Shown here in pieces: positions 47,015 through 50,393 of a DNA stretch of 54,113 nucleotides. The notes below the pieces were generated by a model. It made no database searches. It worked only from the letters and a program-made list of their open reading frames with translations, and was not told the origin of the DNA. The translations under genes and the position numbers were made by a program. Numbering within the stretch: the stretch's first letter is position 1; each line of letters starts with the position of its first letter. The DNA comes from Pseudomonadota bacterium (GTDB lineage: Bacteria > Pseudomonadota > Alphaproteobacteria > Acetobacterales > Acetobacteraceae): assembly GCA_021818425.1 (NCBI GenBank), contig JAKAEC010000007.1, forward strand, positions 1 through 54,113, in the 5' to 3' direction.

Positions 47015-47725
47015 TTACGAGCCGCTGAACCAGTTGTAGCCCTGATCTTCCCAATAGCCGCCCGGATAGATGTTTGTGACGGCAAGCTGAACTATGGACT
47101 TAGGATTCTTGAACCCGAGTTTCGTGGGAATGCGTAGCCTCACCGGCGCCCCGAAGGGCGGGGTGAGTGGGTGGCCTAGGAAATCCAATGCCAGGATGGT
47201 CTGCGGATGCAGAGCGGAAGGCATATCAATGGAGGTGTAGTAACCATCAGCGCATTTGAAACTGACATATTTGCAAGTTGTATCTGCTCCCACGCGGCGC
47301 AGGAAATTACTCAGCTTCACGCCAGACCATTGACCGATGACCCGCCATCCCTCCACGCAGACAAAGCGCGTGATCTGGCTTTCCTGAGGCAATGCGCGGA
47401 GTTGTCGCAGGCTCCAGGGTGACTTGTTCTGGATCTGGCCACCGAGCTCAAGCTTGTAACGTGATTCGTCGACCACGGTGACCTGGTTGATGCTATAGAA
47501 GGCGTTGAACCGCGGTGGACGAGTGATCTGGTCCGGCCGGAAGGTGGGTGCCAACGTGTGCGGGTCGAACAGCGCGGCCTGCACGCGGTCGTTCCAAGCA
47601 GACATAGCGTGCAGGAATTTGTCGGCCAGGTCCGGATGGGCCGGATCGTCATAATTGCACCCCCCCAAAGGGGCTGCTGCCCCCAGTGCCATCGCTCGCA
47701 GTAGCATTGAACGGCGGTTAATCAT
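47015..47725 (-). CDS. Exported sulfite-oxidase-fold molybdopterin oxidoreductase (YedY/MsrP-related)
   Basis: 236 residues. The leader NRRSMLLRAMALGAAAPLGGC has twin arginines and also ends in a lipobox-like Cys23, so the enzyme is likely folded and carries its cofactor before Tat export. The core (about 85-225) is the oxidoreductase molybdopterin domain; Cys123 in RFVCVEGWRVIGQWSGVKL is the Mo ligand position. GGYWEDQGYNWF ends the protein. ATG 47725 overlaps the cytochrome stop (ATGA), so electrons very likely come from or go to that b-type cytochrome, as for YedY/YedZ pairs. Methionine sulfoxide reduction is a family-based inference supported by the Met-rich neighbour. Confidence 0.82.
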   Translation of the reverse strand: MINRRSMLLRAMALGAAAPLGGCNYDDPAHPDLADKFLHAMSAWNDRVQAALFDPHTLAPTFRPDQITRPPRFNAFYSINQVTVVDESRYKLELGGQIQNKSPWSLRQLRALPQESQITRFVCVEGWRVIGQWSGVKLSNFLRRVGADTTCKYVSFKCADGYYTSIDMPSALHPQTILALDFLGHPLTPPFGAPVRLRIPTKLGFKNPKSIVQLAVTNIYPGGYWEDQGYNWFSGS

Positions 47726-48318
47726 GGCAGTCGCCCCCCCGTGATCATGGGCGGCAATACCTTGGGCACTAATGCTACCAGCAGCACATGCACGAGGACG
47801 AACACGCAGATGCCGGTCATTGCAAAAAAATGAACATAGCGCGCAGCGACATAGCCGCCGAATAGATCGCACAGAAACCAAAGCTGCACCGGCTTCCAGA
47901 TGGATAGCCCCGAGAGCACCGCAACAATACCGGCCAGCAGCACACCAACGTAAAGCAACTTCTGCACTGCATTGTAGAGGCCGGTCTCATGCTTCAAATC
48001 GAACCGAAGCGCCGCGCGCAGATCTACCCACACCTCCCTCGGGCGCACGGGCAGAAGCTTCCGGTAATGACCGCTGACCAGGCTCCAGATGAGATAGATG
48101 AGGCCATTGCACACCAGCAGCCACATTGCGGCCAGATGCCAGGCAATTGCCGCTCCAAGCCATTGGCCGATGGTAAAGGGAAAGCGAAAATTGAAAAGCG
48201 GCGACGCATTATAGATCTGCCAGCCGCTGCCGATCATCACCACCATGGCGATGACATTGAGCCAATGCGTTAGCCGCACTGGCCATGGATGGATTACTCG
48301 CCTGCTCATAAGCCGCAC
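47722..48318 (-). CDS. Cytochrome b561-type membrane protein, partner of the molybdoenzyme
   Basis: 198 residues with four main membrane spans. His10 (VIHPWPVRLTHW, with His18), His in IAWHLAAMWLL, and two late His in ARYVHFFAMTGICVFVLVHVLLV are candidate haem b ligands, fitting the prokaryotic cytochrome b561 family. It would pass electrons between the quinone pool and the periplasmic molybdoenzyme encoded immediately downstream with a 4-bp overlap. It is not the eight-span YedZ of E. coli, but YedZ1 of the Azospira system is also a b-type cytochrome. ATG 48309 is an alternative start. It diverges from the Met-rich gene. Confidence 0.85.
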   Translation of the reverse strand: MRLMSRRVIHPWPVRLTHWLNVIAMVVMIGSGWQIYNASPLFNFRFPFTIGQWLGAAIAWHLAAMWLLVCNGLIYLIWSLVSGHYRKLLPVRPREVWVDLRAALRFDLKHETGLYNAVQKLLYVGVLLAGIVAVLSGLSIWKPVQLWFLCDLFGGYVAARYVHFFAMTGICVFVLVHVLLVALVPKVLPPMITGGRLP

Positions 48319-48450
48319 TCCTCATTTTCCGATACAGGACTATGCCTGACATGCGTGCAGGGTGAAGTTTTGACCGCGCTAATCGCAAGGCATGGATTCG
48401 ATGCCCAAACGGCATTGGCCCCCGGCTGCGATGCGCGCCATATCTGCGTT

Positions 48451-48468
48451 ATCCGGAATGTCCCGGAT
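48451..48468. promoter_or_regulatory. Inverted repeat before the Met-rich gene
   Basis: ATCCGG-N6-CCGGAT at 48451-48468 lies 21 bp before the ATG and just upstream of the AGGAG site, inside the divergent promoter region. A regulator binding here could block or control the Met-rich gene. No match to a named operator is known to me. Confidence 0.35.
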
Positions 48469-48489
48469 CTTATCACAGGAGTTCGTCAC

Positions 48490-48810
48490 ATGTCCCGTAT
48501 TCTTGCCGTTGCCGCGTGCGTTCTGTCCCTGGCCAGCGCCAGCGCCGCCCTCGCACAAACCACCAACAATATGAGCCCTAATAATATGGGCAACGGCTCG
48601 GCCATGAGCGCCAGCTCCATGAGCAACGGCTCGGCCATGAGCGCCAGCTCCATGAGCAACGGCTCGGCCATGAGCCATGATTCCATGGGTAACGGCTCGG
48701 CCACGAGCGCCAGCTCCATGGGCAGTGACTCGGCCATGAGCCATGATTCCATGGGCAACGGCTCGGCCATGAGTGCCGGCTCCATGGGGCATTCTGGCAC
48801 CGCGCAGTGA
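48490..48810 (+). CDS. Exported Met-rich repeat protein (MXKDX-like, MrpX-like)
   Basis: 106 residues. A Sec leader (ILAVAACVLSLASASAALA) is cut at about residue 22. The mature 84 residues hold 13 Met, no Cys, Trp, Tyr, Phe or Lys, and consist of six 11-residue repeats of the form NGSAMSxxSMx (residues 35-100) with occasional SHD. It resembles pentapeptide MXKDX repeat proteins and the Met-rich peptide MrpX that soaks up hypochlorite in Azospira. AGGAG lies 8 bases before ATG 48490; the frame is open further upstream but without a leader. The diverging molybdoenzyme/cytochrome pair suggests a reductase for its oxidised Met. Function is inferred. Confidence 0.75.
   Translation: MSRILAVAACVLSLASASAALAQTTNNMSPNNMGNGSAMSASSMSNGSAMSASSMSNGSAMSHDSMGNGSATSASSMGSDSAMSHDSMGNGSAMSAGSMGHSGTAQ
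48592..48789 (+). repeat. Six tandem 33-bp repeats in the Met-rich gene
   Basis: Units start at 48592, 48625, 48658, 48691, 48724 and 48757. Units 1 and 2 are nearly identical; 3, 5 and 4, 6 share variants (SHD or SAS). The multiple-of-three period keeps the frame when copies change. Confidence 0.9.
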
Positions 48811-48909
48811 TTGTCAGGGGGCGCCACGCTGCTTAAGCTCTGAGCGCGCGGAGCCCCTGCCCGCCTCAAGGAGGATGAAATCGGCCAACTGACCGAAAAA
48901 CTTTCCGCG

Positions 48910-49524
48910 TTGCGGACCAGCCGGCGCGAGAATGCCGGATGGGACGAGGCGTATTTGCAGATCATCCGCACGCTGGAACGGGATGGATTCCACGAGGGCA
49001 TCATGCACGAAGGAGAAGCCTTTCCGGATTTCATGCTGCCGAACGCCGAGGGGCGGCTGGTAAGCCTAGAGGAGCGGCTGGCCCAAGGCGCTGTAGTGCT
49101 TGGGTTTTTTCGGGGCACGTGGTGCCCCTTCTGCAATCTGATGCTGGAGGCTCTGGCCGCCGCCATGCCACGCATCAAGGCCAAGGGCGCCGCACTACTA
49201 GCACTGACGCCCGAGACCGGCGCCCTGCCCGCCGCCTTGCAGGCTCGGTATGAAAACCGCTTTGAAGTGCTGTGCGATGCAGATTTCGGCGTTGGGTTGC
49301 AAGCAGGGGTGGTTCATAAAATCCCACCACTCTACCGGGCCAACCTTGCTGCGGCCCAGTTGGATCTTTCCATCCGCCACGGCAATGCGGCTTGGTGCCT
49401 ACCCGTGCCCGCCATCTTTCTCATTCGGTCGGACGGCATCATTGCCCGACGTTTCGTGGACGTGGATTTCACCAAATGGCCGGAGCCTGATGAAATCATC
49501 GACGCGCTGGAGGGGCAGCGCTGA
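48910..49524 (+). CDS. AhpC/TSA-like peroxiredoxin
   Basis: 204 residues from TTG 48910. A thioredoxin-like fold with FFRGTWCPFCNLML places Cys72 and Cys75 in a CXXC arrangement typical of the AhpC/TSA-like (FRGxWCPxC) group. PETGALPAALQARYENRFEVLCDADFGVGLQAGV and VPAIFLIRSDGII continue the fold. It is expected to reduce peroxides in the cytosol. The start is uncertain: the frame is open back to 48844 with protein-like sequence (LKEDEIGQLTEKLSAL) but no ATG or GTG. The one good ribosome site (AAGGAGG) precedes an ATG at 48875 in another frame that stops after five codons. Its stop overlaps the LysR start (TGATG). Confidence 0.78.
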   Translation: MRTSRRENAGWDEAYLQIIRTLERDGFHEGIMHEGEAFPDFMLPNAEGRLVSLEERLAQGAVVLGFFRGTWCPFCNLMLEALAAAMPRIKAKGAALLALTPETGALPAALQARYENRFEVLCDADFGVGLQAGVVHKIPPLYRANLAAAQLDLSIRHGNAAWCLPVPAIFLIRSDGIIARRFVDVDFTKWPEPDEIIDALEGQR

Positions 49525-50393
49525 TGGAGCTGACGCAAGTCCGGTATTTTCTTACACTTTGCCGCACGCTGAATTTTTCACGTGCGGCGGAGGATTGCAA
49601 CGTGACCCAGCCAGCATTCTCCCGCGCCGTCCAAAGACTTGAGGAAGAGCTAGGCGGTGAGTTGATCTTCCGCGAACGCAACCTGACCCGGCTGACCGAG
49701 CTGGGGCGTGAGATGCAGCCACATTTCGAAACCATGGTGGAAGCCGCCGAGACGGCGCGCGCTCTGGCCGCCGCACGGCAGAAGGCGGCGCCGCGTTCCT
49801 TGCGGATTGGGCTTGGCCCTGGCATCCCCGCAACCCCTTTTACCAGCGCAGTAGCGGAAATTTTGCGTGTGCTGCCGGGCACGGAAATTCATTTCACCGA
49901 GGCGCAGCCCGGTACACTGGTGGACAACATGCTGGCAGACGGGCTGGATTGCGCGCTGGTGCCTGATGACTCCCCCCTGCCCGAACGGTTGAACCGTTGG
50001 CCAATTTTTTCCGACTGCGCTATGCTTATCTGCCCAGATACGCACAAACTCGCCCGACACAACCAATGCGCATTGCAGGACCTTGACGGTGAGATCTTGC
50101 TGCTGGGTGATGCCTGTGGCGGCTTCGGCGAGAAGCTGGCAGGCATGGCGCAAGCCAGGTTGCGAACGCAACGTATTAGGGCAAGCGCAGCGCAGATGCA
50201 GGAGTTGGTTCGCGCCGGACTGGGCCTAGCACTGCTCTCAAGCCGCACCAGCATTTCCCCACCGCTCGCCGCACGGACCTTCGTGGAGCCAATGCTCGAG
50301 CGGCAGATTCTGCTCACCGCCGTCGCGGGACGCCCCCTAAACCAAGCTGCTGTTGGATTTATGCGCCTTTGTCGGGCGCAAGCTTTTAGCTGA
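49524..50393 (+). CDS. LysR-family regulator, Cys-rich
   Basis: 289 residues. The N-terminal winged helix-turn-helix is standard (LNFSRAAEDCNVTQPAFSRAVQRLEEELGGELIFRE). The effector domain has eight Cys across the protein. Cys198 in LLLGDACGGFGEK aligns by eye with the peroxidatic Cys199 of OxyR, though the second OxyR Cys motif is not evident. Coupling to the peroxiredoxin gene (one-base overlap) suggests control by oxidants of this small cluster. It is convergent with, and touches, the glycosyltransferase gene. Specific ligand unknown. Confidence 0.88.
   Translation: MELTQVRYFLTLCRTLNFSRAAEDCNVTQPAFSRAVQRLEEELGGELIFRERNLTRLTELGREMQPHFETMVEAAETARALAAARQKAAPRSLRIGLGPGIPATPFTSAVAEILRVLPGTEIHFTEAQPGTLVDNMLADGLDCALVPDDSPLPERLNRWPIFSDCAMLICPDTHKLARHNQCALQDLDGEILLLGDACGGFGEKLAGMAQARLRTQRIRASAAQMQELVRAGLGLALLSSRTSISPPLAARTFVEPMLERQILLTAVAGRPLNQAAVGFMRLCRAQAFS

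Follow-up and report, generated by a model that had tools for sequence, protein, structure and literature searches.

A five-gene block in Acidocella

We analysed a window of 54,113 nucleotides, contig C112 of a metagenome-assembled genome (MAG; G000, 2.13 Mb, 86% complete) from Acidocella, a genus of acid-loving bacteria, with the placement made by the named relatives A. facilis (L095) and A. aquatica (L096); genomes, contigs and loci are given here as G, C and L numbers. Five intact genes were read at positions 47015–50393, with those of a cytochrome b561-type protein and a molybdoenzyme (together the pair) diverging from those of an exported Met-rich repeat protein, a peroxiredoxin-like protein and a LysR-type regulator (the trio). 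Two of the neighbouring genes overlap on each arm, the TGA of the b561 gene with the ATG of the molybdoenzyme gene (ATGA, minus strand), and the stop codon of the peroxiredoxin-like gene with the ATG of the regulator gene by one base (TGATG, plus strand). An earlier reading of the same DNA, here called the original prediction, had described this gene make-up, the ATGA coupling, 13 Met in 84 residues and a CXXC peroxiredoxin coupled to a Cys-rich LysR gene, all of which were confirmed on the sequence; its five genes also stood as read, with the correction that the peroxiredoxin start is probably ATC 48880 and not TTG 48910. Because the arrangement recurs across the genus, we regard the block as going beyond chance. 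The interpretation that we favour, and hold to be slightly likelier right than wrong, is that the block constitutes a LysR-wired form of an MrpX/YedY1-type methionine-cycling defence, with a peroxiredoxin-like protein started from AUC.

Conservation of the block and loss of the trio

Among the 38 genus genomes compared, the molybdoenzyme gene was found in 30, at no less than 73% identity, and as a fragment with a stop in G002, and a full-length orthologue of the peroxiredoxin-like gene was found in 22 (at least 53% identity), each time beside the molybdoenzyme gene. A LysR orthologue (E ≤ 1e-60) was present in 21 genomes, all of them among these 22, and in the remaining one (G023) the LysR gene is cut by a contig end. 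All 22 genomes with the peroxiredoxin-like gene thus carry the molybdoenzyme gene, and no such orthologue occurred in the eight genomes without an intact molybdoenzyme gene (Fisher test 2.6e-4, kinship ignored); weaker relatives of the peroxiredoxin-like protein lie elsewhere in some genus genomes. The matches to the peroxiredoxin-like and b561 genes were 330–728 bases apart in all 20 measured loci, and in G033 the block is split by contig ends. An exported Met-rich ORF (open reading frame) was found between these two genes in 19 of the 22 trio genomes, a count made up of the 20 measured loci minus L052, L055 and L060, plus the window and G033, so that its link to the other two trio genes is strong, not strict.

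For these comparisons 51 molybdoenzyme places were fetched (29 genus orthologues and 22 others), weaker or partial matches being excluded, and G004 (L038), where the contig ends at b561, is outside the trio counts. The seven evaluable genomes with a molybdoenzyme gene and no trio keep the pair, and none of them had a Met-rich ORF within 2.5 kb of b561 (less at contig ends). In G028 (L056 1660–2226) and G019 (L058 1278–1658), an exported-looking Met-poor protein occupies the place of the Met-rich one.

In a tree of 39 molybdoenzyme proteins, rooted at the midpoint, the MAGs L108, L109 and L112 are sister to the Acidocella rows. Matches to the Met-rich, peroxiredoxin-like and LysR genes were found in L112, to the first two of these in L108, and in L109 a peroxiredoxin-like gene is accompanied by a LysR-like frame and by a protein whose 88 residues include 8 Met. 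The five-gene neighbourhood, which the original prediction had proposed to look for in relatives, accordingly recurs in genomes across the genus and also in L112, one of the sister MAGs. In the same tree the trio-less genomes G020, G014, G032, G016 and G035, and G028 together with G019, nest among trio genomes, with well supported forks for G020 and G014 and weaker ones for G016 and G032, and this nesting suggests an ancestral trio that was lost on several occasions. Its joint loss is partly expected from adjacency, as single deletions remove all three genes. The closest genes flanking the block encode a penicillin-binding protein and a PMT-type glycosyltransferase, followed by prfB (Pfam).

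Table 1. Genes and signals of the Acidocella block, in window positions
Feature	Position	Strand	Remarks
SUOX-fold molybdoenzyme, YedY/MsrP-like	47015..47725	-	PF00174; RR signal and lipobox, invariant Cys123
Cytochrome b561-type membrane partner	47722..48309	-	PF01292; start ATG 48309, GTG 48318 possible
Operator-like motif GGCAT-N7-ATGCC-N5-GGCATTGG	48389..48418	.	conserved across trio loci
Exported Met-rich repeat protein, 106 aa	48490..48810	+	13 Met in 84 mature residues
Shine-Dalgarno sequence AAGGAGG (48868-48874) and inferred AUC start of the peroxiredoxin-like gene (48880-48882)	48868..48882	+	cross-locus comparison
Peroxiredoxin-like protein, CPFC in FFRGTWCPFC	48880..49524	+	PF00578; probably cytoplasmic
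LysR-type regulator, five conserved Cys	49524..50393	+	PF00126, PF03466; start overlaps stop of the peroxiredoxin-like gene

The peroxiredoxin-like protein and its start codon

The peroxiredoxin-like protein matched PF00578 with 65.7 bits and gave only sub-cut-off matches in NCBIfam (ResA, BCP-type and SelL-related). Inspection by eye revealed no signal peptide, and because of this and the motif FFRGTWCPFC we consider it probably a cytoplasmic peroxiredoxin-like protein of thioredoxin fold. Among 29 class relatives of the protein (30 loci were returned, including its own), an in-frame TGA takes the place of the first Cys of CxxC in nine (L175, L185, L187, L189, L193, L194, L197, L198 and L200), pointing to apparent selenoproteins. 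In seven of the 29, the relative's gene and a LysR gene meet tail to tail, and the partnership of the two is therefore not confined to the Acidocella locus.

The start predicted mechanically, TTG 48910, lies 10 codons downstream of ATC 48880. Across the 22 genomes no ATG, GTG or TTG start was conserved, and the place of the ATC codon held ATC in 19, ATT in two and AAC preceded by GTG in one (L057). A Shine-Dalgarno sequence (AGGAGG or close to it) stands about 5–8 bases upstream in most loci, being weak in L055 and L059–L061. Aligned over 21 loci, the codon had conservation values of 1.00, 0.95 and 0.90 at its first, second and third base; past it, codon positions 1 and 2 were overall better conserved than position 3, and 5' of it little was conserved besides the Shine-Dalgarno sequence. 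This comparison points to ATC 48880 as the probable start. It would be very improbable, in our view, that translation begins at an ordinary codon, be it TTG 48910 or one giving a longer or shorter N-terminus, with the ATC merely a conserved Ile codon. Such codons exist, as TTG is found at the window's TTG place in six of the 21 loci, a canonical codon between the two places in five, and one 5' of the ATC before an in-frame stop in nine; however, in six loci the stretch reaching from the upstream stop as far as the TTG place is free of ATG, GTG and TTG, and elsewhere the positions differ. The conservation of all three bases, with coding periodicity beginning right after them and so little conserved upstream, likewise speaks against an ordinary start, as does the sister MAG L108, which has ATG exactly at the ATC place.

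When the same alignments were used as controls, the molybdoenzyme and LysR genes each had a canonical codon no more than four codons from the aligned start in all 21 loci, and b561 had one in 13 of 21, where the remaining eight vary in N-terminal length. The infC gene, known for non-canonical starts, served as positive control, and it has ATA and no canonical start in all 29 evaluable genus loci. Acidocella infC thus appears to start with ATA, which is expected if initiation factor 3 (IF3) controls such starts in this genus. AUC is a very rare start codon, and the open-licence literature yielded no AUC start of such a gene; to our knowledge this would be the first conserved AUC start in an oxidative-stress gene outside infC.

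We also considered oxidation of IF3 itself as a switch and rejected it for this genus. The place corresponding to Cys65 of E. coli IF3, presumably located correctly via the PPVx motif, holds Ala in 25, Thr in four and Cys in one (L236 of G023) of 30 genus infC loci (L236–L265), i.e. Ala or Thr in 29 of the 30. In E. coli this Cys65 is oxidised under hypochlorous acid (HOCl), according to the accessible part of PMC5472188. G023 combines the lone Cys at the IF3 place with a lone GTG before the start of the peroxiredoxin-like gene, a single case from which nothing is concluded.

The regulator and the dyad between the divergent arms

The LysR protein contains eight Cys, five of which are conserved (C13, C25, C143, C198 and C283), each being a Cys in all but one or two of the 22 rows aligned, and its closest solved relative is OxyR (4x6g, E 1.5e-18). 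Alignment of the region between the b561 and Met-rich genes from 21 loci gave one strongly conserved island, the operator-like motif of Table 1. This dyad was found between the divergent arms in all 22 trio loci: its 18-mer is exact in the window (48401–48418) and in G033, the 22nd trio genome, and has 0–2 mismatches in all 20 fetched trio loci, and the outer half-site has 0–2 mismatches in 21 of 21 loci. The inner part, ATGCC-N5-GGCAT (48401–48415), has the T-N11-A geometry, a form known for LysR proteins, and by its sequence the dyad is a candidate LysR operator. The window's own genome has a single exact copy of the 18-mer, at this locus, and the genus as a whole has 39, spread over 26 of the 38 genomes. 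In seven of these genomes the 18-mer, ATGCCGTGCAGGCATTGG, is also exact at further places (G003:C114, G016:C71, G007:C65, G022:C11, G012:C100, G014:C23 and G013:C36).

The exported Met-rich protein and the molybdoenzyme pair

Counted past an AxA cut placed by eye, the 13 Met of the Met-rich protein exceed expectation with a binomial P of 7.3e-8 (uncorrected; Met frequency of 2.3% taken from seven window proteins), and they are spaced by 5 or 6 residues, except for one gap of 11. None of the 286 window ORFs of at least 60 aa reached 12% Met when counted from the first start codon, a count in which the Met-rich ORF itself begins 67 codons too early. The window protein had no family match in Pfam or NCBIfam. 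Out of 10 Met-rich proteins scanned against TIGR02953 (penta_MxKDx), five passed (L039, L067, L071, L146 and L168), including the syntenic A. facilis orthologue L039 with 43.6 bits at a cut-off of 41; L041, L112 and L128 scored under the cut-off, and the window protein and L156 gave no match. A possible RNA switch at the Met repeats was discarded, as the single Rfam match, to twister-sister and antisense to the repeats, was sub-threshold (24.4, cut-off 34) and was taken as chance.

Exported proteins rich in Met can bind soft metals, and the protein could then be a Cu(I)/Ag(I) sponge, with the locus as a metal-stress response, a possibility that agrees with His near Met in some copies and with CopL/CopI-type matches, far below cut-off, in some relatives. 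We nonetheless find it improbable, since the 17 copies besides the window's (L052, L055 and L060 excluded) have 9–17 Met, 0–6 His and no Cys, no copper gene was found among ten window proteins scanned, and relatives carry Msr and SigF/NrsF genes.

The molybdoenzyme matched PF00174 above cut-off (95.8 bits) and carries an RR motif and the lipobox LGGC, from which motifs it is predicted to be a lipoprotein exported by the twin-arginine (Tat) route. Among 40 aligned molybdoenzyme proteins, 39 have the lipobox Cys and all 40 have Cys123, at the expected Mo-ligand place. Its only sequence match in the PDB was 1xdq, and the top match of its predicted fold was 1xdy, both of which we take to be the bacterial oxidoreductase known as YedY/MsrP. 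The b561 protein matched PF01292 (74.3 bits) as its sole Pfam family, MsrQ presumably belonging to another. A SorA-like sulfite dehydrogenase is encoded elsewhere in the same genome (L001, G000:C13; 547 bits, cut-off 600).

Related gene sets outside the block

For comparison we used 80 other molybdoenzyme/b561 loci, which are those among the best matches listed and to which the following counts refer. They include the second Acidocella paralogues L075, L076, L079 and L080 and the sister L112, and leave aside L121 and L122, which are the same places as L062 and L063. The b561 gene adjoins the molybdoenzyme gene in all 80, in 14 the pair has an exported Met-rich repeat ORF as a neighbour, including Pandoraea, Cupriavidus and Rhodopila (picked by eye; the Met-dense frames L138, L141, L170 and L171 were not counted), and msrA and/or msrB lie near the pair in six. 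In three other Acetobacteraceae genera (G045, G046 and G059), homologous b561, molybdoenzyme and Met-rich genes face genes for MsrB, MsrA, an extracytoplasmic function (ECF) sigma factor and NrsF, a gene set that Pfam backed for L071. These facing genes lend contextual support to reading the block as an MrpX/YedY1-type methionine sink that has been rewired, and they fit the earlier proposal that LysR and the peroxiredoxin replace a sigma/anti-sigma pair; taken as a whole, the original interpretation is partly supported. The trio-less G028 has a second molybdoenzyme/b561 paralogue with msrB, msrA, an ECF sigma factor and NrsF (L080, C114). NrsF scored above cut-off in 17 of the 38 genus genomes, never inside the block, and G000 has a sub-threshold NrsF match with a stop only. 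Elsewhere in G000, a second MsrB-like stretch with one in-frame TAG adjoins MsrA (G000:C80:69289–69630).

Weighing the methionine-sink reading

Several results weigh against the methionine-sink reading. The molybdoenzyme scored 87.1 bits with the MsrP equivalog model, far below its cut-off of 207, and its predicted fold ties with that of sulfite dehydrogenase. For 66 of the 80 other loci our count gave no Met-rich repeat ORF beside the pair, and the pair therefore has other work too. MsrA and MsrB genes are each found in 37 of the 38 genus genomes, which makes their presence alone uninformative. The neighbours do co-occur, as had been foreseen, but two genomes, G005 and G017, lack the Met-rich gene and a third, G003, has a Met-poor one (4 Met in 91), with the peroxiredoxin-like and LysR genes kept. 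The trio-less G028 has a peroxiredoxin-like match of 56% (residues 4–97) about 5 kb from its second molybdoenzyme paralogue. In the 4x6g alignment the conserved C198 of LysR is matched with the residue that precedes OxyR Cys199, which we take to be the peroxidatic Cys. Finally, the dyad is kept in four of seven trio-less loci, exactly in G032 and G016 and with one mismatch in G014 and G020, and another regulator could therefore bind it; recent trio loss with decay, or another regulator, both explain this persistence.

Two alternatives draw on these results. The pair might be a respiratory oxidoreductase in its own right, for S- or N-oxides or of the sulfite type, to which the trio is merely adjacent, as would agree with the 66 loci, with retention of the pair in the seven trio-less genomes and with the modelled fold tie. 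We consider this unlikely in view of the dyad between the arms in every trio locus, the recurrence of Met-rich neighbours in other gene orders and lineages, the msr genes near the pair in six loci and the separate SorA-like protein of the genome (L001). The peroxiredoxin-like protein and LysR could instead form an independent peroxide/thiol module that regulates itself only, another factor acting on the dyad, which strikes us as rather doubtful. The seven class loci with a tail-to-tail LysR gene had no molybdoenzyme/b561 match in flanks of about 1.5 kb, where Met-rich genes were not sought, and this suits such a module, as does survival of the dyad in the four trio-less loci; on the other hand, no dyad was found in the trio-less G035, and G019 and G028 (other strand) gave 2-mismatch matches only, which are common by chance. 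The T-N11-A geometry of the dyad and the confinement of the LysR orthologue to genus genomes having the molybdoenzyme gene also argue against independence.

Proposed mechanism and its implications

In the methionine-sink reading that we favour, periplasmic oxidants, hypochlorite or other strong two-electron oxidants, would oxidise the evenly spaced Met of the repeat protein, and the exported, lipid-anchored molybdoenzyme would reduce the resulting sulfoxides with quinol electrons received via b561. LysR would sense oxidation in the cytoplasm, bind the dyad and activate both arms, and the cytoplasmic peroxiredoxin-like protein would clear peroxide or thiol oxidation and may reset LysR. Started from an AUC codon and repressed by IF3, the peroxiredoxin-like protein would be made in small amounts from one polycistronic message that yields much sink protein, and LysR, because its start overlaps, would likewise be scarce. 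More tentatively, and as a proposal somewhat likelier wrong than right, we suggest that these elements form a two-layer oxidant switch, with a LysR-driven divergent sink and repair enzyme as one layer and, as the other, IF3 acting on the peroxiredoxin-like protein and LysR through the genus-wide AUC start.

If true, the peroxiredoxin-like gene would join sigR as the second oxidative-stress gene whose non-canonical start is conserved, and sacrificial-methionine defence would be modular, its sink and repair pair being wired to either ECF sigma/NrsF or LysR and a peroxiredoxin-like protein. The locus would also be a clean example, open to testing, of a stress gene whose AUC start is conserved, a kind that start prediction overlooks, as it did here.

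Comparison with known systems

The MrpX–YedY1/YedZ1 system with SigF/NrsF was reportedly described in Azospira by Melnyk in 2015. It resembles the Acidocella block in having a Met-rich peptide, a putative methionine sulfoxide reductase pair (yedYZ) and periplasmic methionine cycling, and we infer that the block works in a similar way. As far as the accessible part of PMC4623255 goes, mrpX, yedYZ, sigF and nrsF occur in perchlorate islands, some of which also encode exported MsrA/MsrB. In contrast, the Acidocella block has divergent arms with a dyad between them, LysR and a peroxiredoxin-like protein at the place of the SigF/NrsF pair, and repeats rich in Ser, Asn and Gly. From the accessible text of PMC8315932, BcrXQP of Brucella, with BcrS/AbcS, is an HOCl-induced, proposed sacrificial sink that likewise combines a Met-rich repeat protein (MXKDX in Brucella) with a putative Met sulfoxide reductase pair, but as one operon under an ECF sigma factor, compared with two divergent units and LysR in Acidocella. 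The SUOX-family molybdoenzyme with its Cys ligand (C123) is present in the block; since sigma/NrsF control is absent from the locus and the Met-rich and reductase genes are divergent rather than in one operon, both in the window and at the other trio loci of the genus, we did not file the block as a member of the MrpX or BcrXQP systems. A LysR/peroxiredoxin-wired methionine sink was not found in the open-licence literature. MsrPQ of E. coli shares the SUOX-fold molybdoenzyme, but the Acidocella enzyme is far below the MsrP model and its partner is a PF01292 protein in place of an MsrQ-type haem partner.

With regard to translation, the Streptomyces sigR gene has a GTC start repressed by IF3, and stress genes with non-canonical starts have very few characterised members, as stated in the accessible part of PMC5472188. 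The peroxiredoxin-like gene shares with sigR, so far as that text describes it, and with infC a conserved codon other than ATG, GTG or TTG after a Shine-Dalgarno sequence, in the case of sigR also in an oxidative-stress gene; it differs from sigR in using AUC or AUU instead of GUC, and in encoding a peroxiredoxin-like protein upstream of its regulator.

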